Source of the DNA: Massiliimalia timonensis
GTDB lineage: Bacteria > Bacillota > Clostridia > Oscillospirales > Ruminococcaceae
NCBI RefSeq assembly: GCF_900186585.1
Contig: NZ_FYDD01000003.1
Coordinates: 620,001-684,000, forward strand
DNA: 64,000 nucleotides
Reading direction: 5' to 3'
This document shows, piece by piece, positions 18,540 through 33,393 of this stretch. The notes below the pieces were generated by a model, which was given only the letters and a program-made list of their open reading frames with translations, was not told where the DNA came from and did no database searches. Made by a program: the position numbers and the translations under genes. Positions within the stretch are counted from its first letter, which is position 1, and each line of letters begins with the position of its first letter.

Positions 18540-18571
18540 AAAAAAGTTGTACGTTACTGTGCAACTTTTTT
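18540..18571 (+). terminator. Leader hairpin-U terminator before the first phage gene
   Basis: Arms 18540-18552 and 18559-18571 form 13 pairs (one G-U) with a six-base loop; the 3' arm ends in six T residues. It lies between the candidate promoter and the terminase small-subunit gene, so it could hold the operon off unless antitermination occurs. It could alternatively be a DNA-level operator. Confidence 0.6.
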
Positions 18572-18621
18572 CATATTTGCGGGTAAGGTCGGAAGTGTTT
18601 TACAGGCTTCTAAACAGATTG

Positions 18622-19149
18622 ATGGAGGGGGAAGATGACACGGAACAGACAGAGAATAAGAAAACTACGATAAAAGAGACCTTGTTTTGCTATTATTTCC
18701 ATCATTACCGCAATGGTCGGGAAGCAGCTGTGAAGGCGGGGTATTCACCGCGACTGTCCGAAAGCATTGCCGCTCGACTGCTCCAGCGAGAGGAGATAAG
18801 ACGGCTTTGCAGGCAGTTTGACCGGGAATATCACAAACAGCAATTATACAATGATGTGATCTCCGGGTTAAAACGGCTTGCGTTTGGTTCTGTCCGTGAT
18901 GGGGTAAAGCTGATGTTTGACGGCGAAATATCAGATTGGGAAAATTTAGATCTATTTTCTGTCCGGGAGATCAAACGTCAAAAGAACGGGACAATGGAAA
19001 TTCGTTTTGCCGACCGTTTCCAGGCATTGGAAAAGCTTTTGGAACTTGAGGAGATGGAAAGTGAACAGGAGGGAACGGCTGCCCTTTACCGTGCGCTGGA
19101 ACTGGGCGCCCAAAGCCTGGGGAAACATCTGAAAGAAGATGGAGATTAA
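18622..19149 (+). CDS. Phage terminase small subunit
   Basis: About 175 residues. A helix-turn-helix-like region (FCYYFHHYRNGREAAVKAGYS...ESIAARLLQREEIRRL) matches the DNA-recognition domain of terminase small subunits of the PBSX XtmA type. The C-terminal half probably mediates oligomerisation and contact with the large subunit. The start is uncertain: ATG 18622 has no clear ribosome binding site, and GTG 18595 or TTG 18577 in the same frame are possible. The end overlaps the large-subunit start by 11 bases, which fits a packaging module. Confidence 0.8.
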   Translation: MEGEDDTEQTENKKTTIKETLFCYYFHHYRNGREAAVKAGYSPRLSESIAARLLQREEIRRLCRQFDREYHKQQLYNDVISGLKRLAFGSVRDGVKLMFDGEISDWENLDLFSVREIKRQKNGTMEIRFADRFQALEKLLELEEMESEQEGTAALYRALELGAQSLGKHLKEDGD

Positions 19150-20389
19150 GCCTTTTTCCGAAAAGCAGCTGCGGTTGATGACTTGGTGGTGTCATAACAG
19201 TCCAGACAGGCAGTATGACGCCGTGATCTGCGATGGGGCTGTGCGAAGCGGAAAAACCTTTTGCATGTCGCTTTCCTTTGTGTTATGGGCACATGCCTCC
19301 TTTCAGAATACTGCTTTTGCCTTTTGTGCAAAAACGATCTTATCCCTTAGGAGAAACGTGATAGCCCCGCTTCTTCCGGCACTGAGGCAATTTGGATTTT
19401 CCTGTTGTGAAAAGCTATCCCAGAATTATGTGGATATTTCCTGCCGGGGCAGGACGAACCGGTTTTACCTGTTTGGGGGAAAGGATGAAGGCTCAGCGAC
19501 ATTGATCCAGGGAATCACCCTTGCAGGGGTACTGCTGGATGAAGCGGCGCTGATGCCGCGCAGCTTTGTGGAACAGGCTTTGGCAAGATGCTCGGTAGAA
19601 GGGTCCCGGTTTTGGTTTAACTGCAATCCGGAGCATCCGTATCACTGGTTTTACCGGGAATGGATTTTACAGGCAAAGCCCAAAAACGCGCTGTATCTTC
19701 ATTTTACGATGGAGGACAACCCCGCACTTTCCCCAAGGATACGAAAACGATATGAAGCGCTTTATTCCGGCGCCTTTTACCAGCGTTTTGTAGAGGGAAA
19801 GTGGGTAAGCGCTAACGGGCTTGTTTATCCGATGTTTTCCCACGAACGTCATTTATTCGAGCAATACCACACCTATTCCGAATACTACATCTCCTGTGAT
19901 TATGGGACGGTGAACCCTACCTCTATGGGGCTTTGGGGAAATGATAACGGCTGTTGGGAACGGCTGAGGGAATATTATTATGACGCGCGGAAAAATCAGC
20001 GGCTGAAAACGGATGAAGAACACTATGAAGCTTTATGTGAGCTGGCGGGGGAGCTTCCTGTTAAGGCGGTGATCGTAGACCCATCGGCGGCAAGCTTTTT
20101 AGAATGTATCCGCAGGCATGAAAAATTTTTGGTAAAAAAAGCTGACAATGATGTGCTAAGCGGGATACGTAGGGTATCTGACGCGCTGCGTGAGGGGAAA
20201 ATCAAGTTCCATCTATCCTGTCAGGACACGATCCGCGAATTTTCCATGTATGCTTGGGAAAGTCAAAGAAGCCGTGACGCCCCAAAAAAGGAATATGATC
20301 ATGCGATGGATGATATACGGTATTTTGTCAGCACGGTACTGCATCGTCAGGAGGAGCCCTTCTTCTTTCTGGCCCTAGCAGAACGGTGA
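19139..20389 (+). CDS. Phage terminase large subunit (PBSX family)
   Basis: 416 residues. The ATPase domain has Walker A DGAVRSGKTF (G33-T40) and Walker B GVLLDEAALM (D134, E135). The C-terminal nuclease domain shows the acidic positions expected of terminase endonucleases (ISCDYGTVNP, VIVDPSAASF, DHAMDDIRYF). It is the DNA-packaging motor that pumps DNA into proheads and cuts it. All key acidic residues seem preserved, which argues against simple decay. It overlaps the small subunit gene at its start. Confidence 0.95.
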   Translation: MEIKPFSEKQLRLMTWWCHNSPDRQYDAVICDGAVRSGKTFCMSLSFVLWAHASFQNTAFAFCAKTILSLRRNVIAPLLPALRQFGFSCCEKLSQNYVDISCRGRTNRFYLFGGKDEGSATLIQGITLAGVLLDEAALMPRSFVEQALARCSVEGSRFWFNCNPEHPYHWFYREWILQAKPKNALYLHFTMEDNPALSPRIRKRYEALYSGAFYQRFVEGKWVSANGLVYPMFSHERHLFEQYHTYSEYYISCDYGTVNPTSMGLWGNDNGCWERLREYYYDARKNQRLKTDEEHYEALCELAGELPVKAVIVDPSAASFLECIRRHEKFLVKKADNDVLSGIRRVSDALREGKIKFHLSCQDTIREFSMYAWESQRSRDAPKKEYDHAMDDIRYFVSTVLHRQEEPFFFLALAER

Positions 20390-20424
20390 CCGTCCATCAA
20401 CAAACAGAAAGGAGTGTGAAGAAC

Positions 20425-21594
20425 ATGAAAAGATGGAAACGAAAAGCAAATCCGTCAAAAGAGGAACCGGTTTCCTTTTCCTCTGCGGCGAGGGGGACAA
20501 ACCAGCCCTTTTCTATGCTGGATTCCTACACGCCGCTGTCCGCCCCGGAGCTTCGGCTTTACGAAGCGATCCGGGAGGGGGTCCCGATTATTGACGCGGC
20601 CATTTACAAGACGATCCGGCTGGTCGGCGGGTTTCATGTGGAATGCAGGGACAAAAGGACGCAGTCTTTGCTGGACCAATTTATCCGAGAGGTGAACGTT
20701 GGGGGCAGAAGCATGGGATTGGAAAGCTTTATTGCTTGTTACCTGGACAGCTTGCTGACATATGGGAATGCAGCCGGAGAAATGATTTTGAACCCGTGGA
20801 ACACTGGCTTGAGCGCCCTATACAATGCGGACATTTCCAAAATTGAGATTAGGGAGAGCAGCGACCCAATGGAGTTGGATTTTTATGTATCTGATGAAAT
20901 GGGACAAGCCCACAAGATCACCCGCAAAGAACTGGTGCTGTTTACTGCGCTGAACCCTAAGGCTGGCCGGCTGACGGGGGAATCGATCCTTCGGGGGCTG
21001 CCGTTTGTGACCTCGATCCTGTTTAAGATCTACCATTCGATCGGGCAGAATTTTGAACGGGTAGGAAATATCCGGTATGCGGTGACCTACAAGCCGGCTG
21101 GGGACATGGTGGACCGCGCTTATGCCAAGGAACGCGCCCAGATGATCGCCCGGGAATGGGCGGAGGGGATGCGCCAAAGCGCGGACGGGCAGGTGCGCGA
21201 TTTTATCACCGTCGGGGATGTAAATATCAAGGTGATAGGGGCTGACAACCAGGTGATCGACACCAATATCCCGGTGCGCCACATGCTGGAACAGGTGATC
21301 GCCAAAATGGGGATACCGCCGTTTTTATTGGGGCTTTCATGGTCCACAACAGAACGGATGAGTCAGCAGCAAACAGATATTTTAACCACAGAGCTGGAGT
21401 ATTACCGCCGTCTATTAACGCCGGTGATCTTAAAAATTTGTACTGCTATGCTGCGGTTAAACGGATCGGAACAAGAGCTTTCCGTGACTTGGGATACGAT
21501 CAATCTCAAGGATGAGGTAGAACAGGCGCATGCCGGGCTTTACCGGGCACAGGCGGAACAAATCCAGCAAACGTTGAAACAGGGAGGTGCATGA
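20425..21594 (+). CDS. Phage portal protein
   Basis: 389 residues. The segments TPLSAPELRLYEAIREGVPIIDAAIYKTIRLV and MLEQVIAKMGIPPFLLGLSWSTTERMSQQQTDIL match phage portal proteins, the dodecameric ring at the capsid vertex through which DNA enters and to which the tail attaches. I prefer ATG 20425 (AAAGGAG about 11 bases upstream) to the GTG 20386 that overlaps the terminase stop. Its place between terminase and protease is canonical. Confidence 0.9.
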   Translation: MKRWKRKANPSKEEPVSFSSAARGTNQPFSMLDSYTPLSAPELRLYEAIREGVPIIDAAIYKTIRLVGGFHVECRDKRTQSLLDQFIREVNVGGRSMGLESFIACYLDSLLTYGNAAGEMILNPWNTGLSALYNADISKIEIRESSDPMELDFYVSDEMGQAHKITRKELVLFTALNPKAGRLTGESILRGLPFVTSILFKIYHSIGQNFERVGNIRYAVTYKPAGDMVDRAYAKERAQMIAREWAEGMRQSADGQVRDFITVGDVNIKVIGADNQVIDTNIPVRHMLEQVIAKMGIPPFLLGLSWSTTERMSQQQTDILTTELEYYRRLLTPVILKICTAMLRLNGSEQELSVTWDTINLKDEVEQAHAGLYRAQAEQIQQTLKQGGA

Positions 21595-22582
21595 TATCAG
21601 ACAGGGAACGATTTTAAAATCTGCCGTTCCGGCGAAGGAAGACCTGCAAAAGATCAACCGGTATACCCGCCGGGAATTGGAGGAAAAGGAGCTTTATTGC
21701 TTCAATGTGATCTTGTGCGACAACGAGATCGACCGGGATGGCGAAGCTTTCAGCGTACCAGCGCTTCACAAGCTTGCAGAATTGTTTTTAGGAAAAACAG
21801 GGATCTTTAACCATGATCCCAAAGGGGAAAACCAGACGGCGCGGATTTATGACACAAAGGTTTGCGTGAAAGAGGGAACAGCGACCCAAAATGGAGAACC
21901 GTATACCTATCTTTTAGCAAGGGCTTATATGGTGCGCAGTGAAAAGACCGCAGACCTGATCCTGGAGATCGACGCAGGGATCAAAAAAGAGGTCAGCGTA
22001 GGATGCAGTGTGGATTCAGTCACCTGCTCAATTTGTGGGACAGATCTGCGCGGCCGCAGCTGTGAGCACCAAAAGGGTGAAATATACAATCATCGGGTAT
22101 GCTGTGCGGTCTTAAGCGAGCCGACAGATGCTTATGAATGGTCCTTTGTAGCGGTGCCGGCGCAAAAAAACGCTGGAGTCACCAAACGCTACGGCGCTTT
22201 CCGGACAGAGGAACAGCCGCAGGAGGCAGAGAATACCGTCTGCCGGGAGCCGGAAGAGGTATTGAAGCTATTAAAGCTGACAGAAAAAGAACTTGTGCTG
22301 AATAGGCTGGAAGCACAAAAGCTGACAGGATATGTAAACCGGTTAAAGCAGGAAGCAAAGCTTGGGAAAGAATTCCGCAGGCGCAGGCAGGAGCAGGTAA
22401 AGGGTGTTTTCCTGTTGCAGTACCCGCAATTAGGAGTAGGGACGATACAAGCAGTGGTGGAAAAGATGTCCGATCAGGAGCTTTCCGAGTTTGAAGCAGT
22501 GTGTAAAAATCCCGGTGGAACGCCTCAGCTTCAGAGTGCTGCAGGGACAGAATGCTTTTTCCAAAAGGACTTTAAAATTTAA
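21587..22582 (+). CDS. Prohead protease / capsid maturation protein
   Basis: 331 residues. The region GIFNHDPKGENQTARIYDTKV supplies a probable catalytic histidine. KKEVSVGCSVDSVTC contains the probable nucleophilic serine of a herpesvirus-assemblin-like (S78-type) prohead protease, and AYEWSFVAVPAQKNAG is a typical C-terminal strand. A small zinc-finger-like insert (CSICGTDLRGRSCEH) sits next to the serine. After residue 210 a helical, charged region resembles a scaffold. The only early start is GTG 21587, overlapping the portal gene by 8 bases with a poorly spaced ribosome binding site, so the N-terminus is uncertain. Confidence 0.75.
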   Translation: MHDIRQGTILKSAVPAKEDLQKINRYTRRELEEKELYCFNVILCDNEIDRDGEAFSVPALHKLAELFLGKTGIFNHDPKGENQTARIYDTKVCVKEGTATQNGEPYTYLLARAYMVRSEKTADLILEIDAGIKKEVSVGCSVDSVTCSICGTDLRGRSCEHQKGEIYNHRVCCAVLSEPTDAYEWSFVAVPAQKNAGVTKRYGAFRTEEQPQEAENTVCREPEEVLKLLKLTEKELVLNRLEAQKLTGYVNRLKQEAKLGKEFRRRRQEQVKGVFLLQYPQLGVGTIQAVVEKMSDQELSEFEAVCKNPGGTPQLQSAAGTECFFQKDFKI

Positions 22583-22611
22583 AGGCAGGGAATGCCGGAA
22601 AGGAAACAGAG

Positions 22612-22947
22612 ATGAACTATAATCAAATTGGGGATGTAACAGCAACATTTCGGACAAGTGGGAATGTTTTAGTAGGGGACTTGGTTTCTCTCAAAGAAAA
22701 CAGCACGGTTCAAGCCGCGGCAGCAGACGAGGAAATTATTGGCGTATGCGTCAGCAAAAACGGGATCTACGCAGGAGTTCAGGTAAGAGGCGGCGTAACC
22801 GTAGCTTGTGCCGACAGCGCCTTAAAGGTGGGCTATCGCCAGTTAAAAGCGGCTGCGGACAATAAAATCGCTTTGGGTACTGCCGGGGCTTATCATTTAG
22901 TCGTTTCAGTGGACACTGCAGCAGAAACCGCGATGGTTTTGTTATAA
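22612..22947 (+). CDS. Capsid cement / head decoration protein (DUF2190-like)
   Basis: 111 residues, mostly short beta strands with glycine turns (TSGNVLVGDLVSLKENSTVQAA; IIGVCVSKNGIYAGVQVRGGVTVAC). The size, the beta pattern and the position between protease and major capsid gene match DUF2190-like capsid cement proteins. Such proteins bind the outside of the expanded capsid. It ends 16 bases before the capsid gene. Assignment is by pattern and context. Confidence 0.7.
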   Translation: MNYNQIGDVTATFRTSGNVLVGDLVSLKENSTVQAAAADEEIIGVCVSKNGIYAGVQVRGGVTVACADSALKVGYRQLKAAADNKIALGTAGAYHLVVSVDTAAETAMVLL

Positions 22948-22963
22948 GAAGGGGGAAAAATCA

Positions 22964-23968
22964 ATGGCATATTATGATAATATCCGTTTGGAAAAAGGAA
23001 TGTATGCGGTAAGCGGGAAGTCTTTTACCAAGGTTTTGGAGGAAATGGACCCCAGCGAAAATTACCGCGGGACCCAGCTGGAGGGATTGGACGCATTTGA
23101 ACGCCAGTTAAAGCGGTTTGACATTAAAGTATCCGGCGGGAGGTCGGATATGGTGGAAAAATTTTTCAGCACCGCAACCTCTTCCGCATTGTTTCCGGAA
23201 TATGTGAAGCGCGCCGTTGTATCCGGGCTGAACGACAGCAACATTTTGGAACAGATCATTGCGGCAAAAACTTACATTGATTCTTTGGATTACCGTTCCA
23301 TTACTTCTTCCCGGGATGATGAAGAATTAAAGCCGGTCGCGGAGGGGAGCACGATCCCTGCAACCACAGTAAAGACGCAGGAAAACCTGGTAAAGCTTTA
23401 TAAACGCGGCAGGCTGTTGGTGGCTTCTTATGAAGCGATCCGTTTCCAGAGGCTGGATTTGTTCACAGTGACCCTAAAACAGATCGGGAACCGGATCGCC
23501 CGTTCCCAGCTGGAGGATGCAGTCAACGTCCTGTTAAACGGTGACGGAAATGAAAATCCCGCCAAAGAGGTAGAATTAGCAGGAGAAAGCCTGACCTACC
23601 AAGATTTGATCAACTTGTGGGGAGAATTTGACGAGCATGAAATGAACACGATGCTGGTAGACACTCAGGCTATGATGAAGCTACTGGCGTTAGAGGAATT
23701 GAAAGACCCGGCAACGGGATTAAATTTTCAGGGCACTGGGAAACTGAGCACGCCGATGGGAGCCAACCTGTACAAAAGTATTGCTGTGCCGGCTGGGAAG
23801 CTGATCGCTTTGGACAAGAGAAGCGCACTGGAAATGGTCACAGTAGGCGACGTGGGGATCGAATACGACAAGCTGATCGATCGTCAGCTGGAGCGCGCGG
23901 CCATTACCGCGACTTACGGGTTTGCAAAAATTTTCCCGGATGCAGTCCGTGCAATGGATTTAAACTAG
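22964..23968 (+). CDS. Phage major capsid protein
   Basis: 334 residues. The middle (RSITSSRDDEELKPVAEGSTIPATTVKTQENLVKLYKRGRLL) and the C-terminal region (GANLYKSIAVPAGKLIALDKRSALEMV) have the character of an HK97-fold major capsid protein: an N-terminal arm, an E-loop segment and an A-domain. A good ribosome binding site (GAAGGGGG) precedes ATG 22964. It is followed by an unusually strong hairpin before the connector genes, which would favour high capsid expression. Confidence 0.85.
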   Translation: MAYYDNIRLEKGMYAVSGKSFTKVLEEMDPSENYRGTQLEGLDAFERQLKRFDIKVSGGRSDMVEKFFSTATSSALFPEYVKRAVVSGLNDSNILEQIIAAKTYIDSLDYRSITSSRDDEELKPVAEGSTIPATTVKTQENLVKLYKRGRLLVASYEAIRFQRLDLFTVTLKQIGNRIARSQLEDAVNVLLNGDGNENPAKEVELAGESLTYQDLINLWGEFDEHEMNTMLVDTQAMMKLLALEELKDPATGLNFQGTGKLSTPMGANLYKSIAVPAGKLIALDKRSALEMVTVGDVGIEYDKLIDRQLERAAITATYGFAKIFPDAVRAMDLN

Positions 23969-23976
23969 TGTGAAAG

Positions 23977-24004
23977 CATGGCGGGAGTATACACTCCCGC
24001 CATG
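23977..24004 (+). repeat. 12-bp perfect hairpin after the capsid gene
   Basis: CATGGCGGGAGT (23977-23988) and ACTCCCGCCATG (23993-24004) with an ATAC loop. No T-tract follows, so it is more likely an mRNA 3'-end stabiliser, pause site or processing site than a full terminator. Confidence 0.65.
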
Positions 24005-24021
24005 AAAGGGGGAATAGCTTT

Positions 24022-24381
24022 GTGGTTGATTTTTTGGAGGTGACAGACCGATTCCGAATCATGTCAAAGCTTTCGGAAGAGGAGATCGCACAGTATACAG
24101 AGATGATCCGGCTGTGCACAGAAGAAATCGAAAAAAAATTAAAACCGGGGGTGTGCTGGGAAGAACATTGTCCGCTTTTACAACAGTTGGCAGCCGCCAC
24201 TGCCTATTACCGGTATATAGTCATGACCAATATGACTACGGGCAGCATTAATGCGCTGGACCTGACAGTGACAATGGATAACACAAAACAGATCCAGGCG
24301 GCAAAGAGGCTGAAGGATGAATTGACAGTGATGGCAAAAGGCCTGTTGCGGGACGATGTGTTCCTATTCGGCATGATGTAA
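24022..24381 (+). CDS. Head-tail connector protein
   Basis: 119 residues, mainly helical (SKLSEEEIAQYTEMIRLCTEEIEKKL; CPLLQQLAAATAYYRYIV), followed by a short extended segment. The helical content, size and position just after the major capsid gene are those of gp6/gp15-type adaptor proteins that dock on the portal. The start is GTG 24022 with AAAGGGGG about 9 bases upstream. No residue-level signature, so the name rests on position and shape. Confidence 0.6.
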   Translation: MVDFLEVTDRFRIMSKLSEEEIAQYTEMIRLCTEEIEKKLKPGVCWEEHCPLLQQLAAATAYYRYIVMTNMTTGSINALDLTVTMDNTKQIQAAKRLKDELTVMAKGLLRDDVFLFGMM

Positions 24382-24392
24382 GGGGACGCGAT

Positions 24393-24728
24393 ATGGTCGA
24401 TTATAAATTGATCCGGGACTTTTTGGAACGGTACGGCTCCAAAATTACAGATCTAGAAGGGAAAAAGGAAACCTTTGGGGTTCTGTCTCCGGTTCGGTAC
24501 TGGGAGGCGGAACGGGAAGAAAAAATTTTTTTCCCAGCAGGTTACCGGATGAAATGCGAATATGTTTTGATGAGCCTGAATGAAAGCGGAGTGATCCAAA
24601 AAGGAAAGTCTATCCGGTTGAACAGGAAGGTGTTCCATGTGATCGGCGCCGATTGGTATTACTATGCCGACAAGCCGTTATATCTGCGTGCCTATTTGAA
24701 CGAGGAGGTGGCGTATGATCCGTGCTGA
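24393..24728 (+). CDS. Head-closure / tail-attachment protein
   Basis: 111 residues. The sequence alternates short strands (EEKIFFPAGYRMKCEYVLMSL; SIRLNRKVFHVIGADWYYYADKPLYLRAYL), consistent with the beta-barrel head-completion or stopper proteins found second after the capsid in myophages. It overlaps the next gene by 14 bases, so the two are translated together. I do not recognise a named family; the function is inferred from gene order. Confidence 0.5.
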   Translation: MVDYKLIRDFLERYGSKITDLEGKKETFGVLSPVRYWEAEREEKIFFPAGYRMKCEYVLMSLNESGVIQKGKSIRLNRKVFHVIGADWYYYADKPLYLRAYLNEEVAYDPC

Positions 24729-25209
24729 GTCATTAAGCTTGTTCAAAGAGGGCTTGCTAAAGGAGCTTGCGGGAATTTTTCCGGAAATGCAGATTTTAGA
24801 TGGGTTTCGGAAAGAACAGGTCTACAAGGCGGTGGAACAACCGTTTTTAGCAATGAATATCCAAAAGATTTTTGCGCGGTCGGACAGCTGTTCGGATTAT
24901 TGGGGAACCGCGGTACAGGAAGATGGGAGCACCGAGGTTTACGGCCGGCTGGCAGAGGTGACGTTTCGGTTCCAGTTTGGGCTGCCGGCCTTTTCCTGCC
25001 TGTCTGAAACGACGCTGTTTTTGCGGCTGTGCAATTATCTTTTGGGGCAGCCGGATTATGATTTTTCCGAGATCCTCTGCGGGGAAGTGGAATTTTCACA
25101 GGCAATGCAGTGCTTTGTTTTAACGGCGAGCGCTAAAACAAAGATTATTTTAACAAGGCAGGAGATTTTCCAGCCAATTCGGGATATTGTAGTTCAGACC
25201 AAAAAATAG
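24715..25209 (+). CDS. Tail terminator / tail completion protein
   Basis: 164 residues starting at ATG 24715 within the previous gene (GAGGAGG just upstream). The mix of an N-terminal helix (SLFKEGLLKELAGIF) and central strands (TEVYGRLAEVTFRFQFGLPAF) suits a tail-terminator protein that caps the tube. Its position directly before the sheath gene is where XkdJ-type proteins are encoded in PBSX-like phages. No family signature was recognised. Confidence 0.5.
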   Translation: MIRAESLSLFKEGLLKELAGIFPEMQILDGFRKEQVYKAVEQPFLAMNIQKIFARSDSCSDYWGTAVQEDGSTEVYGRLAEVTFRFQFGLPAFSCLSETTLFLRLCNYLLGQPDYDFSEILCGEVEFSQAMQCFVLTASAKTKIILTRQEIFQPIRDIVVQTKK

Positions 25210-25301
25210 GAAGGCTAACAGGGATATTATTTGCGGCCCTTGATATTCCGATGAGATTTTATAAAGAAAGGAAGCCTTTTAAAAAAGGCATGGTGATACA
25301 T

Positions 25302-26327
25302 ATGGCCAATAGTATGCGCCCCGGGATTTATACTGACTACACCATTACCCCGGTCTTTTCCAAAAACCGGGGACAAAGTATTGGGATAGCGGCGCGGGTA
25401 AAACATGCAGTGGAAGGGATCCAAACGATCACTTCATTGAGCCAGGCGCAGCGGATCTTTGGGGAAGAAGCTTTGGATAATCCAATGATGCAGCTAATTG
25501 GAGCGGTTTACGAGGCAACAGCCCCGACTATTTATGCCGTTGGAGTGACAGAAGACACCGACGAGGCTTATTTAGGAGCAGTTGACAGCCTTTTCCAAAG
25601 CAGAGCCTATCTGCTGACAACCGACCGGAAAAGCCTGCCTGTCTATCAAAAGATAAGGGAGAAACTCAGAGAAAGCGGGGAAAAGCTTGCGGTTTTGCCT
25701 ACGATCCCGGACACACCGCCCGATGAGTTGGCGCAAGAACTAAATTGTGAGCGGATCTGCGTCACGTATCCACCTGTAAAGAAAAATAGATTTACAGAAG
25801 ATTTTTCAGCAATTGGGTTGACCGCTTTGATCTCTGACCGGAACGGAGAGCCAGGAAGCTTCAACGGCGCCGCTTATTCTCAAAACTGCGTGCTGACAGA
25901 AGAACCGGAGGAAGAAGAGGTGGAAACATATCTGCGCAGCGGTGTGTGCGTGCTGGAAACCAGTGGGGGAAGTGTTACCTTGATCCGCGGGGTGACTACC
26001 CGTACCCATGACGAGGCAGGGGAACCGGAAACGTCTTATCGTAATTTAGGGGTCATCTTAACGGTCGATACGGTGCTGCCGCAGCTTCAGGAAACACTGC
26101 GTCAGAAGCTTGATTTGACTCAGAACAGTCTGGTGGGACTGAACTCTATTTTATCACTGACGGTGAGCAGGTTGGAGGATTTTGTAGACGCCGGGCTTTT
26201 AAGCGGATATGATATGCCGCGGATCACCTTAGACCCAGATGACGCATCTGTTTGTATAGTAGAAATCGGGTTTACTGTGGCACAGGGGATCAGCAGTATT
26301 TATCTGACTGCGCAGATCACAGTTTAG
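25302..26327 (+). CDS. Contractile tail sheath protein
   Basis: 341 residues. The N-terminus MRPGIYTDYTITPVFSKNRGQSIGIAARVKH and the C-terminal domain (LSLTVSRLEDFVDAGLLSGYDMPRITLDPDDASVCIVEIGFTV, cut here into its motifs SRLEDFVDAG and EIGFTVAQGISSIYLTAQI) are typical of myophage tail sheaths such as XkdK. It is shorter than many sheaths (often 430-480 residues), so one of the outer domains seems reduced. ATG 25302 is preferred; ATG 25290 is in frame. Its presence makes the particle a contractile-tail type. Confidence 0.88.
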   Translation: MANSMRPGIYTDYTITPVFSKNRGQSIGIAARVKHAVEGIQTITSLSQAQRIFGEEALDNPMMQLIGAVYEATAPTIYAVGVTEDTDEAYLGAVDSLFQSRAYLLTTDRKSLPVYQKIREKLRESGEKLAVLPTIPDTPPDELAQELNCERICVTYPPVKKNRFTEDFSAIGLTALISDRNGEPGSFNGAAYSQNCVLTEEPEEEEVETYLRSGVCVLETSGGSVTLIRGVTTRTHDEAGEPETSYRNLGVILTVDTVLPQLQETLRQKLDLTQNSLVGLNSILSLTVSRLEDFVDAGLLSGYDMPRITLDPDDASVCIVEIGFTVAQGISSIYLTAQITV

Positions 26328-26343
26328 AAGGGGGAGATATAAG

Positions 26344-26721
26344 ATGACAGGTGTTACGATCCCCACCAGCAAGGACATTACGATCGAAATAGACGGCAAA
26401 AAGCTGGCAGTGGTGCAGAGCTGTACGGTGAAGACTGTGCGGGAGACCCGGAGCATTGAGGCGTTTGGGAGCGAAAATCCAGTTGCAACGGTAGGTGGGA
26501 AGCTGACCCACACACTGGAATTAAAAAAGATCGTACCGGTGAAAGGGCTGAATGACCTTGACTTTTACGGGCTCAGTGATTTTACCATTGTGATCGCCAA
26601 ACCGGATACCCGAATCGTTTATTCTGGATGCGAGTGGAGCAGTATCGGGGAAACATTGGGGTTAAATTCTCCGTGCATCGAAACGATGCAGGCAGTAGCG
26701 CGCAAGCGCTTGGTGCTGTGA
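26344..26721 (+). CDS. Tail tube (core) protein
   Basis: 125 residues with the beta-rich profile of contractile tail tubes (DITIEIDGKKLAVVQSCTVKTVRETRSIEAFG, then VATVGGKLTHTLELKKIVPV). It follows the sheath gene by 16 bases, the canonical sheath-tube order (XkdK-XkdM). AGAAGGGGGAG precedes the ATG. In such particles tube hexamers stack to form the rigid conduit that is pushed through the cell envelope on sheath contraction. Confidence 0.78.
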   Translation: MTGVTIPTSKDITIEIDGKKLAVVQSCTVKTVRETRSIEAFGSENPVATVGGKLTHTLELKKIVPVKGLNDLDFYGLSDFTIVIAKPDTRIVYSGCEWSSIGETLGLNSPCIETMQAVARKRLVL

Positions 26722-26732
26722 GGAGGGGAAAG

Positions 26733-27071
26733 ATGAGAACGACTTTCATTCAGCTTGGCGGGCAGTATTATGAGATGCGGGAGCTTTCCTGCGAGCAGGT
26801 GATTGTAAGTCTTGGCAGGTGCGAAGCCATGCAGCAGGCTGATTGGCCCTTTGATCTGGACAAGGAACTGCTGCGTGCCATGTGTGAGAACGCGGTTTTA
26901 GGGTTTGAAAGCATTTACACTGGAGAAAAGAAACGATTCGCTTCTCCGGATGAGGTGTTAAAAACCCTATCTCTTTCAGAGCTGGCCAATATTTTTGACA
27001 CATATAGCACCGCCTTTTCTAAGGATGGCTCTGGCCAGACCATTTTTGAAGCAGCAGAGGTAGAGGAATGA
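26733..27071 (+). CDS. Tail assembly chaperone-like protein
   Basis: 112 residues starting at ATG 26733 with GGAGGGG 5 bases upstream. It is acidic and helical (FDLDKELLRAMCENAVLGFESI; SPDEVLKTLSLSELANIFDTYSTAF), like XkdN/gp13-type tail chaperones, which normally coat the tape measure protein during assembly. Its stop overlaps the next start as ATGA. No slippery heptamer was seen near the overlap, so a programmed frameshift is not evident. Confidence 0.6.
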   Translation: MRTTFIQLGGQYYEMRELSCEQVIVSLGRCEAMQQADWPFDLDKELLRAMCENAVLGFESIYTGEKKRFASPDEVLKTLSLSELANIFDTYSTAFSKDGSGQTIFEAAEVEE

Positions 27072-27286
27072 AGATTTTTGAAAAAGCACTTTTCCGGCTG
27101 ATACAGCAGAGAGAAAGCAGTCAGGAACCGGAAATACCGATGGCCGATCCCCAGCAGGAGCATGAAAAAATAAAAACGATTGACGGAGAATACGATACCG
27201 TTGCGTTTGGAGAGGGGATCAGCTTGGAGGAGATCGAAGAAAAAACCGAATACCGCAGGCGGCGCAGCGTCCGGGCGCTGGACTGA
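27068..27286 (+). CDS. Small acidic/basic protein in the tape-measure position
   Basis: 72 residues, overlapping the chaperone gene by ATGA. It is hydrophilic, with an acidic centre and a basic C-terminus (EEIEEKTEYRRRRSVRALD), and has no transmembrane or coiled-coil repeat. It occupies exactly the slot where contractile phages encode the long tape measure protein (commonly many hundreds of residues). It may be a second chaperone-like subunit or a new protein. I recognise no family. Confidence 0.5.
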   Translation: MKIFEKALFRLIQQRESSQEPEIPMADPQQEHEKIKTIDGEYDTVAFGEGISLEEIEEKTEYRRRRSVRALD

Positions 27287-27298
27287 CAGGAGGAACAT

Positions 27299-27835
27299 AT
27301 GGCGACACAGTTTCAGTTTAAGGATTATACCTTTGCGGTGAATCCCGGGCAGTTTCAAATTTCCCGCGGGAAGATACTAAAAGCATTCCAGCCACCGATG
27401 ATCACTGGAACAGTGTATCCCCGCGCAGTGATCCAGCCGATTGGTGTGGAACCTATCCTTGTAACAGGGAGGGGCGAACTGATCGGAGAAAATGTGATGG
27501 AAGAATATACGCGGCTTTACCAGGTGTTTATACAGGAGGAAAGCGGGTTGTTATATCTGCCGAACCTTGCGCCGTTTTACGCCTATTTTCAAAAGCTGGA
27601 GATGACCGGTAAGGCGGGCCCCAATATTTTAAGCTATGAGTTTTCCTTTTTAGAGGACTGCGGAAAAAATCAAACGGAATTATCTGCCCAAGAGCCGTTT
27701 TATATCAGCCGCTCCGGGGATACCCTGTGCCTGATTTCGGTAAAAACAGGGAAAACGGTGGAGGAATTGTTGTTAAGCAATCCGGCTTTACAGGTTTCCG
27801 GCGAGCTTTCAGAGGGGACGATGGTATGGCTGTAA
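27299..27835 (+). CDS. LysM-containing tail/baseplate protein (XkdP-like)
   Basis: 178 residues. The N-terminal two-thirds (FQFKDYTFAVNPGQFQIS; YSFLEDCG-like strand region) resemble phage tail proteins that connect tube and hub. The last 45 residues form a LysM domain (FYISRSGDTLCLISVKTGKTVEELLLSNPAL), which binds peptidoglycan. Genes of this type (XkdP, Mu gp45 neighbourhood) lie between tape measure and hub. It starts 12 bases after the 72-residue gene and overlaps the hub gene by 10 bases. Confidence 0.75.
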   Translation: MATQFQFKDYTFAVNPGQFQISRGKILKAFQPPMITGTVYPRAVIQPIGVEPILVTGRGELIGENVMEEYTRLYQVFIQEESGLLYLPNLAPFYAYFQKLEMTGKAGPNILSYEFSFLEDCGKNQTELSAQEPFYISRSGDTLCLISVKTGKTVEELLLSNPALQVSGELSEGTMVWL

Positions 27836-28806
27836 GAAGTTCTGGAAATGTAAGGATAACAGGTACAGCGATCGACGATCAAAAAGTGACCTTTCAAAAG
27901 ATCGTGAGCTTATCGTTTGAAAGCGACCGGTTCACCCCGGCGGATGAATTGCAGTTCACGGTGCTGGACGTTTTAAACGGGCGGTTTAAATTCATTACAA
28001 TGGAACTAAACGGACGGAAGATTTTTGACGGGATCGTAGATATTCAGAAGCGGGTCATTGACCAAAAGGGAAACTACACCAGCTTTGTATGCCGCCGTAA
28101 AACCTGCATGATGCTTGACAACGAGGTAAAACCATACTGGTATTTTAATCTGACATCAGATCAGTTGATCAAAAGCCATGCGCTTCCCTATGGAGCAAAT
28201 GGGGCAAAGCTGCCAAAGGCGGCGGTATTGCCGCAGATTTTGGCAAAAAAGGGGATCTCGCATTGGGAATTTTTGACCCTGTTTTGCCGGTTGGCCTATC
28301 ACAGATCCCCCTATGTTGACCGTATGGGAAATATCACCTGCGACCCCTTTCAGGAAACGGAGCATCTGTTTTCCAATTCACGGGCAGATGGGATTCCTTT
28401 TTTAACAGCGGAATTGACGGATGATCATTATCAAATCATCTCTAAGCTTTCTGTAAAAACTGGAAAGGCGGAATACGGTGCGACCTATGGATATGTGCTG
28501 AACAATGCCTCTGCGGACCAGTTTGAGATCGTAAGGGAACGGTACTACCACCCGGAAACAGAGTGGCAGGGAGAACCGGCGCTCAGTGCCCGGCAGTATT
28601 ACGAGGATAAGCAGGCCGGTTTTTTTGAAGTTACTGTCACGGTACCCGGAATTTATGATATTCGGGCCGGGGACAGCGCGCGCTTTGAAGACGTGATCGG
28701 GAGCTATTATGATCTGTATGTGACAAAGGTACGCCTGCGCAGTGACTCGGACGGGAATACGATGACCATTACCCTTTGGGAGAAGAGCGGGCTGATCAAT
28801 CGTTAA
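27826..28806 (+). CDS. Baseplate hub protein (gpD / XkdQ-like)
   Basis: 326 residues starting at ATG 27826 inside the previous gene, with GAGGGG just upstream. The N-terminal strands (TFQKIVSLSFESDRFTPADELQFTV; FDGIVDIQKRVIDQKG) and the central LILAKKGISHWEFLTLFCR-type segment (here VLPQILAKKGISHWEFLTLF) match the gp27/gpD hub fold. The end (GDSARFEDVIGSYYDLYVTKV) is also characteristic. The hub forms a trimeric platform at the tube tip on which the spike sits. Confidence 0.8.
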   Translation: MAVRSSGNVRITGTAIDDQKVTFQKIVSLSFESDRFTPADELQFTVLDVLNGRFKFITMELNGRKIFDGIVDIQKRVIDQKGNYTSFVCRRKTCMMLDNEVKPYWYFNLTSDQLIKSHALPYGANGAKLPKAAVLPQILAKKGISHWEFLTLFCRLAYHRSPYVDRMGNITCDPFQETEHLFSNSRADGIPFLTAELTDDHYQIISKLSVKTGKAEYGATYGYVLNNASADQFEIVRERYYHPETEWQGEPALSARQYYEDKQAGFFEVTVTVPGIYDIRAGDSARFEDVIGSYYDLYVTKVRLRSDSDGNTMTITLWEKSGLINR

Positions 28807-28818
28807 AAAGGAGGGAAA

Positions 28819-29196
28819 ATGATGGTGAACCGGTTTTGGGAAAAACAGCCGGAGGAATTTGCCAGCTTTGGCACAGTGCTCCGTTCCGAAAAAAACGGCC
28901 TAGGGATCTCGTCCCAGGTCGATGTGCAGGCGGCACAGGCGGTGCATCCGTATGGGATATACAGCCTCCCCTGTGAACAGGACGAGGTGCTGATGCTGCC
29001 GACTCAGGATGGAAAATATGTTCTTCTAGGGGTGACCCGGCAAGCAGGAGAGCTGGAAAGCGGAGAAATTTTGATCCAAGCAAAAAGCGGGGCATATTTA
29101 AAGCTGCGTTCTGATGGATGCGCAGAACTCAACGGCATGGTGATTGATCCAAGTGGAGTGGCTGTAACGCTAGGAAAGGAGCGAAACAATGGATAA
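28819..29196 (+). CDS. Baseplate spike / gpV-like protein
   Basis: 125 residues. An N-terminal OB-like part (HPYGIYSLPCEQDEVLMLPTQDGKYVLLGV) is followed by a repetitive beta segment (EILIQAKSGAYLKLRSDGCAELNG), as in phage gpV/gp45 and short spike proteins. It would form the membrane-piercing tip below the hub. The protein is short, with little of the long beta-helix found in many spikes. AAAAAGGAGGG precedes the start, and the end overlaps the next gene by 8 bases. Confidence 0.72.
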   Translation: MMVNRFWEKQPEEFASFGTVLRSEKNGLGISSQVDVQAAQAVHPYGIYSLPCEQDEVLMLPTQDGKYVLLGVTRQAGELESGEILIQAKSGAYLKLRSDGCAELNGMVIDPSGVAVTLGKERNNG

Positions 29197-29542
29197 CTTG
29201 ATTGCAAACGGCGACATGGTGATGGGCAGAAACGGCGATCCGGAAATGATTTCCGGGCTAAAGGAACTAATTCAGCGGGTGATGCTCCGCCTTAGCGTGA
29301 AACGGGGCGGTTTTCCTTACAACCAGCAGCTGGGCAGCCGGTTAGCTCAGCTGGATTTAAACCAGACAGACGAATTTACTTTGCTGGCGGCCGTTCGAGA
29401 GGCTTTAGCCGATTTGGAGGAGGTTACTGTTTCCGGCATTGAAAAAACGCTGGACCGGGAAACACAGACCCTGTACCTAACGGTTTACCTGGTAGTCAAC
29501 GGCAGGGAAGCGATCGTTGAACTCAATGACCAGCTTTGGTAG
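29189..29542 (+). CDS. Baseplate wedge protein (gp25 / gpW-like, XkdS)
   Basis: 117 residues. The stretch LSVKRGGFPYNQQLGSRLAQL and the following helix-strand pattern (TLLAAVREALADLEEVTVSGIE) are typical of gp25-like wedge components, including the conserved G-x-FPYN-x2-LGS-type motif. It connects the central hub to the gpJ wedge arms. It overlaps the spike gene by 8 bases and is followed by the J gene after 12 bases. Confidence 0.85.
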   Translation: MDNLIANGDMVMGRNGDPEMISGLKELIQRVMLRLSVKRGGFPYNQQLGSRLAQLDLNQTDEFTLLAAVREALADLEEVTVSGIEKTLDRETQTLYLTVYLVVNGREAIVELNDQLW

Positions 29543-29554
29543 AAAGGAAGAAGA

Positions 29555-30616
29555 ATGACATATCAGTTGATCTATAACAATTTGAAGCAGACTTTTGAGG
29601 AAGAAAGCGGATATCCAGTACATGATGATTCTGATTTAGGGATCCGGATGCAGGTGATTGCCGGGGAATTATTCCATCTTTCCGAACAGATTAGCTTCTG
29701 CGAAAAACAAATGTTCCCTCAGACTGCAACCGGGGAATATCTGGAACGCCATGGCGTGAGCCGGGACTTGTATAAAAAGAAAGCGACAGCCGCAACAGGG
29801 ATTTTGCGTTTTTCCCGTTCCAGCGCCGCCGCGCAGGACATTGTGATTCCGGCCGGGACGCTCTGCACCAGCTCTTCCTCCGGCGGGGTGATGTATGCCA
29901 CCACAGAAGACGGCGTGATTTCCAAGGGCGCTACCTTTGCGGATATTCCTGCCGCCGCTTCGGAAAAAGGCGGGGAGGGAAATATCCTGAAAGGAAAGAT
30001 TGATACTTTGGTAGGCACGGTTGCAGGGGTGAGCAGTGTGACGAACCCGAACAATTTTTCGGGCGGGATGGAAGAGGAATCGGATCAGTCTTTCCGAAAG
30101 CGTTTGCTGGATTCCTACATTAACCCATCGAATGGCGCAAACGCCAAGTTTTATCAGGAATTTGCATTGAGATATGAACGGGTGATGTCGGCAAAAACGG
30201 AATACCAGTCTAGCGGGAATGTGCTGAATCTTTATGTATCTGATTATTTCCGGATGACAGACGATGATCTCATCCAACAGATTCAGGATGACCTGAAAGC
30301 AGAAAAGGAGTTAAATGTCAACGTACAGGTAAAAGCGGCGATACCTGTGAAGCAGGATATAGAGGTGACCGTTTATGCAAAAAACAGCCAGAATACCGGT
30401 ATGAAGCAAAGTCAAGTGATTTCCTATCTTCGTCAAAAGACGTATGAGCTGGGTGTGGGAGAAGCATTTAACCCCTATTCGATCGCGCATGATATTGCAG
30501 AACAGGTAGACGGGATCCTGTCTATTTCATTTGTACAGCCGTCAGGATTAGTAAAGGTATCGGCGGGACAGATCATTTCCCCGGGTAATATGAGCGTCAC
30601 AGTGGAGCGGGGATAA
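29555..30616 (+). CDS. Baseplate J-like protein (XkdT)
   Basis: 353 residues. The sequence follows the gpJ/gp47 family: an N-terminal helix (SDLGIRMQVIAGELFHLSEQI), the YLERHGVSRDLYKKKATAATG region, the IPAGTLCTSSSSGGVMYAT and GGMEEESDQSFRKRLL motifs, and a C-terminal strand-rich part. It forms the inner wedge ring of the contractile baseplate. It is full length for the family, and it sits in the usual W-J-I order. Confidence 0.9.
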   Translation: MTYQLIYNNLKQTFEEESGYPVHDDSDLGIRMQVIAGELFHLSEQISFCEKQMFPQTATGEYLERHGVSRDLYKKKATAATGILRFSRSSAAAQDIVIPAGTLCTSSSSGGVMYATTEDGVISKGATFADIPAAASEKGGEGNILKGKIDTLVGTVAGVSSVTNPNNFSGGMEEESDQSFRKRLLDSYINPSNGANAKFYQEFALRYERVMSAKTEYQSSGNVLNLYVSDYFRMTDDDLIQQIQDDLKAEKELNVNVQVKAAIPVKQDIEVTVYAKNSQNTGMKQSQVISYLRQKTYELGVGEAFNPYSIAHDIAEQVDGILSISFVQPSGLVKVSAGQIISPGNMSVTVERG

Positions 30617-30627
30617 GGAGGAGTATC

Positions 30628-31116
30628 ATGGGTTCTTTTCAGCGGATTTGCCGGCTCTTAAAGGATACCGGGTTTTATAAGCTACGGGGAAACAGCTTGG
30701 TGGAAGCGGAGATGAAAGCATATGCCTCGGTTTTAGAGGAACTGAGCACACAGCTAGAAAGGATATTGGAATACTGCTTTCTGGACTCTCCCGATAATCT
30801 AAGGCTATCTTATTTTGAAGATTTATTTGGTTTGGCGATCGATCCCCAGGACGATGAACAAACAAAGCTGGACAAGATCCAGCAGATGAAAAAAAGGTTT
30901 CAGGTACACAATACAGATTTTTCTAAAGCTGCGGTCACAGAGCAACTTCGCATGGGCGGCTTCACTGCGGATTTGACAGAAGATCCAGACAGCCGCGAAG
31001 TGCAGGTCGTGATCACACAGGACCGCGGTTATTGCAGTACCAAAGCGGACAAAGAGATGTGGATCCGCAATGCAATGCCTTGCCACGCGACACCGAAAAT
31101 TATTGAAAAAATTTAA
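30628..31116 (+). CDS. Baseplate / tail protein I-like (YmfQ, DUF2313; XkdU)
   Basis: 162 residues. The N-terminal helices (CRLLKDTGFYKLRGNSLVEAEMKAYASVLEEL), a DSPDNLRLSYFEDLFGLAIDP segment and the C-terminal CHATPKI motif agree with DUF2313/YmfQ proteins such as XkdU. These bridge the wedge to tail fibres. It is the last structural gene: no fibre, fibre chaperone or lysis gene follows, and a new promoter begins 9 bases after its stop. Confidence 0.8.
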   Translation: MGSFQRICRLLKDTGFYKLRGNSLVEAEMKAYASVLEELSTQLERILEYCFLDSPDNLRLSYFEDLFGLAIDPQDDEQTKLDKIQQMKKRFQVHNTDFSKAAVTEQLRMGGFTADLTEDPDSREVQVVITQDRGYCSTKADKEMWIRNAMPCHATPKIIEKI

Positions 31117-31179: not shown

Positions 31180-31209
31180 GAGAATTTGCAGTAATTGAGG
31201 TGCAGAAAA

Positions 31210-31467
31210 ATGAAAAAAGTGATGATGTTTCTTACATTTTTAGGATTTATTTTTTTGGCGGGGGCAGTTGGCGCATATGATCAGGATAGCTTTACCTTTG
31301 GTCAAACAGCAGTACAATGCCTGATCGGCTGTTCTTTGATGGGGGCAGGCGCTTTTGGAACACGTGTTGTCAAAATGCTGCATAGAAAAAAACGGCTTCG
31401 CCGCAGATATGAAAGGATCCGCACCATCTGTGATTATGAAGCACAGCAGATGCGGCGCACAGCCTAA
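31210..31467 (+). CDS. Small two-helix membrane protein under SOS-type control
   Basis: 85 residues starting at ATG 31210 with GAGG 9 bases upstream. Two hydrophobic segments (about residues 3-21 and 34-52: VMMFLTFLGFIFLAGAVGA and TAVQCLIGCSLMGAGAFG) are separated by a short acidic loop. A very basic tail follows (HRKKRLRRRYERIRTICD). The layout resembles class II holins or small SOS-induced division inhibitors, but no family was recognised. It is transcribed from a consensus promoter with a LexA-type operator right behind the phage-derived block, and a strong hairpin follows. Whether it belongs to that block is unknown. Confidence 0.6.
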   Translation: MKKVMMFLTFLGFIFLAGAVGAYDQDSFTFGQTAVQCLIGCSLMGAGAFGTRVVKMLHRKKRLRRRYERIRTICDYEAQQMRRTA

Positions 31468-31799: not shown

Positions 31800-32441
31800 A
31801 TGCGCATACACTTTGAAGAACAATTAAAAAGACTGCATGTGGAACTGATCAAAATGGGGAGCCTGTGTGAAGAGGCGATCTCTCTTTCAGCTAAGAGCTT
31901 GGAAACGCCGGGCAAATACTTTTACGACAAGGTAAAAGAACTGGAGATCGCGATCGACCAACAGGAAAATGAGATAGAAAGCATCTGCATGCGTTTGCTA
32001 TTGCAGCAGCAGCCGGTCGCAAGGGATCTTCGGAATATTTCCTCCGCTTTAAAGATGATCTCCGACATGGAGCGGATCGGGGATCAGGCGGTCGATATTA
32101 CAGAAATCGCGCCGTTTATCTCCCAAAGCCAGCCAAAAAGCAAGGTGCATTTAGCAGATATGGCGCGGATCGTTGTAAGCATGGTAACGGACAGCATCGA
32201 AGCCTTTGTCAAAAAGGATTTGACCCTGGCACAGCATGTTATGAAAACAGACGATGAGGTAGACGCGCTGTTTGATCGGGTGAAGGAAGAAATTACCGAC
32301 CTGATCGCACAAAAAGATACCGACGGGGTTTTACCGGTAGACCTGTTGATGGCGGCAAAATATTTTGAACGGATCGGGGACCATGCGGTGAATATTGCAG
32401 AATGGGTAGAGTATTCTATCACCGGGGAACATAAAAAATAG
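31800..32441 (+). CDS. phoU: Phosphate signalling regulator PhoU
   Basis: 213 residues in two helical PhoU repeats (about 1-105 and 115-210), with conserved motifs LSAKSLETPG, DQQENEIESICMRLLLQQQPVARDLR, MISDMERIGDQAVDI and the matching YFERIGDHAVNIAEWVEY of the second half. PhoU is a cytoplasmic metal-binding protein that links Pst phosphate uptake to the PhoR kinase and keeps the Pho response off when phosphate is plentiful. GGGAGG lies about 11 bases upstream of ATG 31800. A PhoB/PhoR-type pair follows; no pst genes are in the window. Confidence 0.93.
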   Translation: MRIHFEEQLKRLHVELIKMGSLCEEAISLSAKSLETPGKYFYDKVKELEIAIDQQENEIESICMRLLLQQQPVARDLRNISSALKMISDMERIGDQAVDITEIAPFISQSQPKSKVHLADMARIVVSMVTDSIEAFVKKDLTLAQHVMKTDDEVDALFDRVKEEITDLIAQKDTDGVLPVDLLMAAKYFERIGDHAVNIAEWVEYSITGEHKK

Positions 32442-32457
32442 GATTCCAGATCGTTTT

Positions 32458-32467
32458 ATGGTATAAT
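32458..32467 (+). promoter_or_regulatory. Extended -10 promoter of the PhoB/PhoR pair
   Basis: TGG-TATAAT (TATAAT at 32462-32467), an extended -10 element without a clear -35. It is directly followed by the palindrome at 32469-32491. Confidence 0.55.
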
Positions 32468-32468
32468 A

Positions 32469-32635
32469 GCGTTAAACGGGTCGTTTAACGCCCAGAAAAA
32501 CGGCTGTCAGAACGAGGTTCTTTCCCGCCTAGCGGCGCCGCCGTTTTTATCACGGAAGGCTTGCGGGCATCATAACGGGGAAACGGGTCGTTACATGTCC
32601 GGGAAAATGGATCTTAGAACGAATTTTACCGTGCT
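32469..32635 (+). repeat. Palindrome and duplicated element in the phoB leader
   Basis: GCGTTAAAC-GGGTC-GTTTAACGC (32469-32491) is a perfect nine-base-pair inverted repeat overlapping the expected transcription start. Its core AAACGGGTCGTT (32474-32485) recurs exactly at 32581-32592, and about 45 further bases after each copy also align loosely (shared AAAA-x-GG and AGAACGA). Between the copies, AAAAACGGC (near 32495) can pair with GCCGTTTTT (near 32541) in a terminator-like stem. Operator pair or duplicated RNA element are both possible. Confidence 0.5.
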
Positions 32636-32719
32636 TTACAAAAGATTTGCAGCACGCGACAGATAAAAGGGCCATAATTGATTTGGCTGAACGTTAGTGG
32701 AAAGCAAAGGAGGAAGCTC

Positions 32720-33388
32720 ATGATCTACTTAGTAGAAGATGACGGCAATATCCGGGAACTGGTTACTTACACCTTTCATACTCAGGGATTAGAGGCGGAA
32801 GGATTTGAACGTCCCTCAGAGTTTTGGGAGGCCATATCCCAAAAATTGCCGGATTTGATCTTGCTTGATATTATGCTTCCTGAAGAAGACGGCCTGAGTA
32901 TTTTGAAAAAGCTGAGGAATACTTCCGCTACCCAAAGGATCCCGGTGATGATGCTCACTGCCAAGGGGAGCGAATATGACACGGTCTTGGGGCTGGACAG
33001 CGGCGCTGACGATTATGTGGCAAAGCCGTTTCGGATGATGGAATTATTGTCGCGGGTCAGGGCGTTGCTGCGGCGCACCAGGGAAACAGATTCCGTGCAG
33101 GAATACCGGATCGGGGAGCTTTATGTCTGCCCGCAGAAACACCAGATCACTGTGTCTGGCCGGCCGGTGGTTTTAACGCTCAAAGAATTCGAGCTGCTCT
33201 GCCTCTTACTGGAGCATGAAGGCATGGTGTTCACCCGCGCTCAGCTTTTGGACCAGATCTGGGGCTATGCCTTTGACGGGGAAAGCCGGACGGTGGATGT
33301 CCATATCCGGACTTTGCGCCAAAAGCTGGGAAAAAGCGGCGCTCTGATTGAAACGGTGCGGGGCATTGGGTATAAGATAGGGGGCTGA
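32720..33388 (+). CDS. PhoB/PhoP-type response regulator
   Basis: 222 residues. The receiver domain has the acidic pocket (VEDD), phospho-acceptor D50 (LPDLILLDIMLP), T80 and K102 (ADDYVAKPF). The C-terminal OmpR/PhoB winged helix (about 125-222) has LTLKEFELLCLLLEHEGMVF and RTVDVHIRTLRQKLG. ATG 32720 follows AAAGGAGG. The position between phoU and a PAS-containing kinase makes it the likely phosphate regulator, but sequence alone cannot fix the signal. Confidence 0.9.
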   Translation: MIYLVEDDGNIRELVTYTFHTQGLEAEGFERPSEFWEAISQKLPDLILLDIMLPEEDGLSILKKLRNTSATQRIPVMMLTAKGSEYDTVLGLDSGADDYVAKPFRMMELLSRVRALLRRTRETDSVQEYRIGELYVCPQKHQITVSGRPVVLTLKEFELLCLLLEHEGMVFTRAQLLDQIWGYAFDGESRTVDVHIRTLRQKLGKSGALIETVRGIGYKIGG

Positions 33389-33393
33389 ACAAC

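Follow-up and report, generated by a model that had tools for sequence, protein, structure and literature searches.

A 64,000-nucleotide stretch of the Massiliimalia timonensis genome (contig NZ_FYDD01000003.1, positions 620,001–684,000; Clostridia, Oscillospirales, Ruminococcaceae; hereinafter the window) codes at positions 18547–31116 for a single unbroken plus-strand operon of 19 intact open reading frames (ORFs), overlapping or narrowly spaced, whose products span the terminase, portal, protease, capsid, neck, sheath, tube, spike and baseplate classes in an order resembling that of PBSX. We posit that this locus is probably an ancient domesticated prophage late operon, which is vertically inherited and makes a small DNA-filled capsid, i.e., a gene transfer agent (GTA)-like element. 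As in GTAs, it is a chromosomal cluster of phage-derived structural genes devoid of integration and replication genes, and displays both vertical inheritance and purifying selection. A first-pass annotation, made from the DNA alone, had already regarded it as a maintained, domesticated particle, and its presence largely as a genus-level trait, its host-following phylogeny and a ratio of nonsynonymous to synonymous substitution (dN/dS) of 0.09–0.31 bear this out.

That annotation had named a shared position in relatives beforehand as a test. In Massiliimalia massiliensis (genome G002, NZ_FUHT01000004.1), the locus has the same neighbors as in the window, pheT-ireB on one side and phoU-phoB-phoR on the other, with protein identities of 37–86%; of the ZIP-to-phoU setting originally described, the phoU side is common to both species, while the ZIP gene is not next to the M. 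massiliensis locus. A stop codon seen in the M. massiliensis portal match proved to lie outside the gene, the portal ORF being intact at 399 amino acids (aa). Host neighbors are also common across genera: all or most of tpiA-pgk-degV-trmL in four, glgP in five and pho/pst in three, with coaD-rsmD being another housekeeping flank found in more than one (several of these gene names were read by eye from sequence). Across 36 genomes, the distances between elements parallel those between the PheT proteins of their hosts (Mantel r 0.79, p 0.0002), and the element and PheT trees have 13 of 33 splits in common, including well-supported deep ones. Low dN/dS across species, likewise anticipated, was found in eleven pairs (0.09–0.31 for the whole locus), all of these being closer relatives, with the window versus M. 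massiliensis comparison saturated at most genes. The most constrained genes are those for the major capsid protein (MCP; median 0.07), the portal (0.10) and the large terminase TerL (0.12). More than 60 genome loci were compared, and almost all have intact reading frames.

Of 249 genomes from the family, 105 have a homologue of the portal, and of 345 from the order, 57 do, across at least six families; it is always a single copy, which in two of the family drafts is spread over two contigs. No homologue was found outside the order among the sampled genomes, a class-wide draw having matched only within it. Presence is largely a genus-level trait: among the 75 genera represented by at least two genomes, 62 either have it throughout or lack it throughout and 13 are mixed, where shuffling gave a mean of 48 mixed genera. 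Absence from close relatives had been named as a potential refutation; all four sampled Massiliimalia members carry the locus. TerL is a poor marker of this family, since by itself it shares about 50% identity with proteins of Lactobacillus phages and phage D6E. The closest portal of a named phage is 25% identical. A complete phage at the same borders with att sites had been held out as another refutation; no att sites were found, nor did the GenBank scaffolds and the best 80 of 361 IMG/VR contigs that were considered yield any complete phage bearing such a portal and capsid.

Loci of this kind are listed in viral collections. Three GenBank "Bacteriophage sp." scaffolds carry it (L015, L016 and L017; MT835508, MT835769 and MT835952); we rejected them as complete phages, the 46.7-kb MT835508 reading as host chromosome beside the locus, with trmL nearby. 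IMG/VR holds 361 contigs with a portal relative, the best 80 of which are mostly short and contain the same locus; the window's own locus is deposited there as IMGVR_UViG_2788500065_000001 (12522 bp).

The first-pass annotation had described a compact contractile particle. The contractile genes are indeed present in the window, but the tail is dispensable, with many relatives keeping only the packaging, head, neck and hub genes. Among the 63 analyzed genome loci, 22 have the sheath, 9 have baseplate J without a sheath, 29 have the hub without either, and 3 have none of these nearby. Sheath presence switches at least three times on the trees, loss being more likely than gain. The several lineages that have lost the sheath, tube and baseplate still have the terminase, portal, protease and capsid and, as a rule, the hub. 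In four reduced genomes of the same family, 0.7–0.9 Mb in size (G087, G180, G106 and G193), the terS-terL, portal, protease-MCP and neck/hub modules of the operon lie apart from one another at three or four sites, and each occurs once. The parts are whole, save in G193, where the portal (L099) and a short gpJ (L302) are each split in two frames. The GTA trait of genes spread over several loci is thus seen in the reduced genomes, while the operon of the window genome is whole. Such persistence is not expected of a decaying prophage, as opposed to a function that several proteins jointly perform for the host. On balance, we lean towards a single GTA lineage that has been handed down within one order of gut Clostridia from the ancestor of several families or from earlier still, and that has dropped the contractile tail on several occasions. 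Its packaging, capsid and hub components would be so useful that genomes below 1 Mb kept them after the operon scattered, and its fullest form would be a contractile particle without a canonical tape measure.

The scattered particle genes of the 0.7–0.9 Mb genomes were recorded as loci L205–L210, L300–L304, L078, L081, L084 and L099. Separately, 13 loci (L023, L066, L068, L069, L073, L075, L077, L160, L161, L164, L166, L168 and L169) code for a 150–170 aa protein (cluster d0) after the last baseplate gene, which is absent at that place in the window; it is possibly a fibre or receptor-binding part.

All the packaging, capsid, sheath/tube and baseplate genes that had been named are present on one strand in the canonical order, with overlapping frames (see the table). 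Pfam, PHROG and NCBIfam searches name TerS, TerL, the portal, capsid, sheath, tube, hub, sheath initiator, baseplate J and a Gp48-like protein, and structure prediction adds two identities. The first is the prohead serine protease g4, which has invariant H76 and S137, an inserted CxxC...CxH motif and a helical, scaffold-like C-terminal part; its fold had no significant match in the PDB, as opposed to the viral library BFVD. The second is the short gpV-type spike g16, which Foldseek matches with a probability of 1.00 to the phage Mu baseplate chain V (6.9e-4) and P2 gpV (1.3e-3). The TerL family profile matches solved large-terminase structures (PDB 5oe8, E 1.9e-173), and the key ATPase residues are preserved as had been proposed, as are the nuclease motifs: Walker A (GAVRSGK), Walker B (LLDEAAL) and the acidic D254, D314 and D391 are conserved, and mostly invariant, in an 18-member alignment. 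The small terminase TerS probably starts at ATG 18622 rather than TTG 18547.

Table. Genes of the Massiliimalia timonensis operon and the adjoining g20, in window coordinates (HTH, helix-turn-helix)
Gene or product	Position	Strand	Support
TerS, small terminase; N-terminal HTH-like region kept	18622..19149	+	Pfam Terminase_2 E 1.7e-16; cross-locus domain comparison
TerL, large terminase	19139..20389	+	TIGR01547 PBSX-family TerL (NCBIfam), 200 bits vs cut-off 105
Portal protein	20386..21594	+	phrog_30703 3e-144; 105/249 family genomes
g4, prohead serine protease	21587..22582	+	AlphaFold2 pLDDT 84.5; BFVD top match prohead serine protease E 2.4e-21
g5, capsid decoration-like; absent from many relatives	22612..22947	+	phrog_4588 3.1e-12
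MCP, HK97-type	22964..23968	+	Phage_capsid_4 9e-16; phrog_3922 4.7e-99
g7, head-completion/adaptor-like	24022..24381	+	position; kept in most loci, short ones included
g8, head-tail connector-like	24393..24728	+	position; conserved
g9, tail-terminator-like	24715..25209	+	position; conserved
Tail sheath	25251..26327	+	PF17482 1.9e-6 (sheath C-terminal domain); phrog_279 1.9e-13
Tail tube	26344..26721	+	phrog_27038 9.7e-33; phrog_985 5.4e-5; position
g12, tail-assembly-chaperone-like (ORF opens 26628)	26733..27071	+	position; family profile
g13, 72-aa low-complexity ORF at tape-measure (xkdO) position	27068..27286	+	position; counterparts about 72–215 aa
g14, tube-baseplate joining protein, XkdP-like position	27299..27835	+	position; kept in long forms and some short forms
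Hub, XkdQ-like (ORF opens 27727)	27826..28806	+	phrog_177 baseplate hub 3.1e-8; persists in short forms and reduced genomes
g16, short gpV-type membrane-piercing spike	28819..29196	+	AlphaFold2 pLDDT 86.4; Foldseek matches
Sheath initiator/baseplate wedge, gp25-like, XkdS	29189..29542	+	phrog_120 9e-9; PF10934 8.9e-4
Baseplate J (XkdT)	29555..30616	+	PF04865 5.6e-41
Gp48/XkdU-like baseplate protein	30628..31116	+	PF10076 0.009; phrog_521 2.2e-4
g20, 90 aa, two hydrophobic segments and basic tail; membership uncertain	31195..31467	+	sequence

As also proposed at first pass, no integrase, repressor, replication, fibre or lysin ORF occurs within 18547–31116. The att-like flanking repeats are likewise missing, with no exact repeat of at least 13 bp common to the near flanks and no common 16-mer in the 5-kb flanks, and no tRNA gene was found in the 64-kb window. 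The integrase/att, replication, lysis and full-tail components of a functional prophage are all wanting in the locus. Between the baseplate genes and phoU sits g20, which is found only in M. timonensis and M. massiliensis and whose sequence is possibly holin-like. In several genera, phosphate genes (phoU, phoB, phoR or pst) adjoin the locus (window 31800–35049, L019, L026, L064 and L088); this neighborhood possibly reflects a regulatory link or is due to chance.

The tape measure had been reported as absent and the sheath and tube as complete. The canonical tape measure is missing; however, its position after the sheath-tube-chaperone block holds a low-complexity 72-aa ORF, and ORFs of about 72–215 aa come after the chaperone in sheath-bearing loci. 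The whole interval from the tube to g14 measures 578 bp in the window and 28–1431 bp over 46 sheath-bearing loci (22 from genomes and 24 from IMG/VR), and the lack of a tape measure is therefore a family trait and not a single-genome deletion. Accordingly, while the sheath and tube genes are present, the tail is not a normal complete one, given that a 72-aa ORF stands in for the tape measure; this short ORF may serve as a mini tape measure.

The small terminases of known GTAs have no DNA-binding domain (PMC11841831). In the present family, about 110 TerS sequences were compared; roughly one in three is ~95–140 aa long and lacks the N-terminal DNA-binding region, and the family thus seems to contain TerS of both kinds. 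Loss of this domain seems to have been repeated in separate families (L151, L152, L153 and other 95–140 aa loci) and is a possible marker of a switch to non-specific packaging.

That particles are produced, package host DNA and deliver it to other cells, how long the tail is and how the operon is regulated are matters that we infer from these genes, and the following scheme would accommodate them. A host signal would switch the operon on, and the procapsid would be assembled on the portal by the protease/scaffold and the capsid protein. TerS and TerL would then fill the head with a headful of any available DNA, with the vertex being closed by the neck proteins and the hub. To this the Massiliimalia form would add a very short contractile tail comprising the sheath, tube, gpV-type spike and J baseplate, with the 72-aa stub for a tape measure, while in relatives the vertex would end in a sheathless baseplate or in the hub only. 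Release would depend on lysis functions encoded elsewhere.

Several observations weigh against a vertically inherited, GTA-like element. The chromosomal site varies across the family, three supported conflicts between the element and host trees (G013, G059 and G195) leave room for some horizontal exchange, and genes are broken in some loci (L226, L248, L265, L278, L098 and L099). The TerS of the window retains the DNA-binding region that known GTA versions lack, and packaging in this organism could be less random than in its relatives. Further, a lysis gene was not identified, and for Massiliimalia the particle, its packaged DNA and its transfer are predictions from the genes.

Of the competing explanations, a host-kept particle which packages DNA without delivering it to other cells, serving instead in DNA release, protection or nutrient recycling, is unlikely. 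It would account for the hub-only forms without a recognizable ejection tail, delivery is likewise unproven for the Faecalibacterium agent FpGTA (PMC12946183), and the pho/pst/phoU neighbors in several genera would fit phosphate regulation, though they may be there by chance. However, wherever neck, hub, spike and baseplate genes occur, they are conserved, as one would expect of a delivery device. We consider it quite unlikely that the locus is a tailocin or PBSX-like killer, in which the contractile tail kills relatives and the capsid is incidental. The window form does have a sheath, tube, gpV-type spike and J baseplate, along with the PBSX gene order and a PBSX-family TerL, but it lacks a fibre or receptor-binding gene and a canonical tape measure. 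Moreover, a tailocin keeps the contractile tail without capsid and terminase, whereas here many relatives drop the sheath, tube and baseplate yet keep the terminase, portal and capsid, and the capsid, portal and TerL are under the strongest constraint. As the conserved core is DNA packaging and not contraction, a GTA-like particle is favored over a tailocin or a defense device; of the roles initially suggested, the defensive one is unsupported, with PADLOC finding nothing. A recently degraded prophage heading for loss would explain the missing integrase, replication, regulator and lysin genes and the split genes of a few relatives, but is largely refuted and very improbable in the face of the intact frames, low dN/dS, congruence with the host phylogeny, same position in M. 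massiliensis, lack of an att repeat and retention in 0.7–0.9 Mb genomes.

The PBSX order is terS-terL-portal-protease-MCP-connectors-sheath-tube-chaperone-[xkdO]-xkdP-xkdQ-xkdS-xkdT-xkdU. The window locus matches this order up to the baseplate, its TerL passes the PBSX-family model, and PBSX of Bacillus subtilis too packages host DNA. However, the locus is much shorter, lacking the canonical tape measure (xkdO), fibres, holin, endolysin and regulators, and its capsid and portal are distant from those of known phages. With the RcGTA-type agents of Alphaproteobacteria it shares vertical inheritance, purifying selection, a core cluster with dispersed parts, the absence of self-propagation genes and, in many members, a TerS without the DNA-binding domain. 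RcGTA-type agents are of independent origin and siphovirus-like, in contrast to the ancestor of the present locus, a myovirus-type phage with a PBSX-family terminase.

The closest comparison is FpGTA of Faecalibacterium, the operon of which codes for TerS, TerL, portal, scaffold and MCP, and the 40 nm particles of which are filled with 8.4–8.9 kb of host DNA, seemingly picked at random (Borodovich et al. 2026; PMC12946183). GTA-like packaging was also reported from other Ruminococcaceae, Oscillospiraceae and Christensenellaceae, the gene cluster not being given there (PMC12946183); besides this work, we found nothing on the locus in the family or order in open-licence papers. Both systems belong to gut Clostridia of the same order and have a chromosomal operon of ~10 kb without replication genes; the portal and MCP accessions of FpGTA are two apart, as the portal-g4-MCP order predicts, and its TerS is without the DNA-binding domain, like a third of the TerS proteins in the family studied here. 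On the other hand, FpGTA was reported as podovirus-like, with a second operon for the baseplate, fibre, holin and endolysin, while the window form has its sheath, tube, spike and baseplate in one operon and keeps the HTH-like region of TerS. Given their common gene order and host group, the two are probably kin and a common family is likely.

Few lineages are known to have GTAs, and the report of one from the gut, in Faecalibacterium, dates only from 2026. The locus family provides a candidate gene set spanning several families of one order, together with a portal profile that finds it. It offers a natural series from a contractile tail to a bare hub, with the reduced genomes showing which parts are indispensable. 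Given that viral contig collections include such loci, some of what is catalogued as the gut "virome" may consist of host-owned particles.

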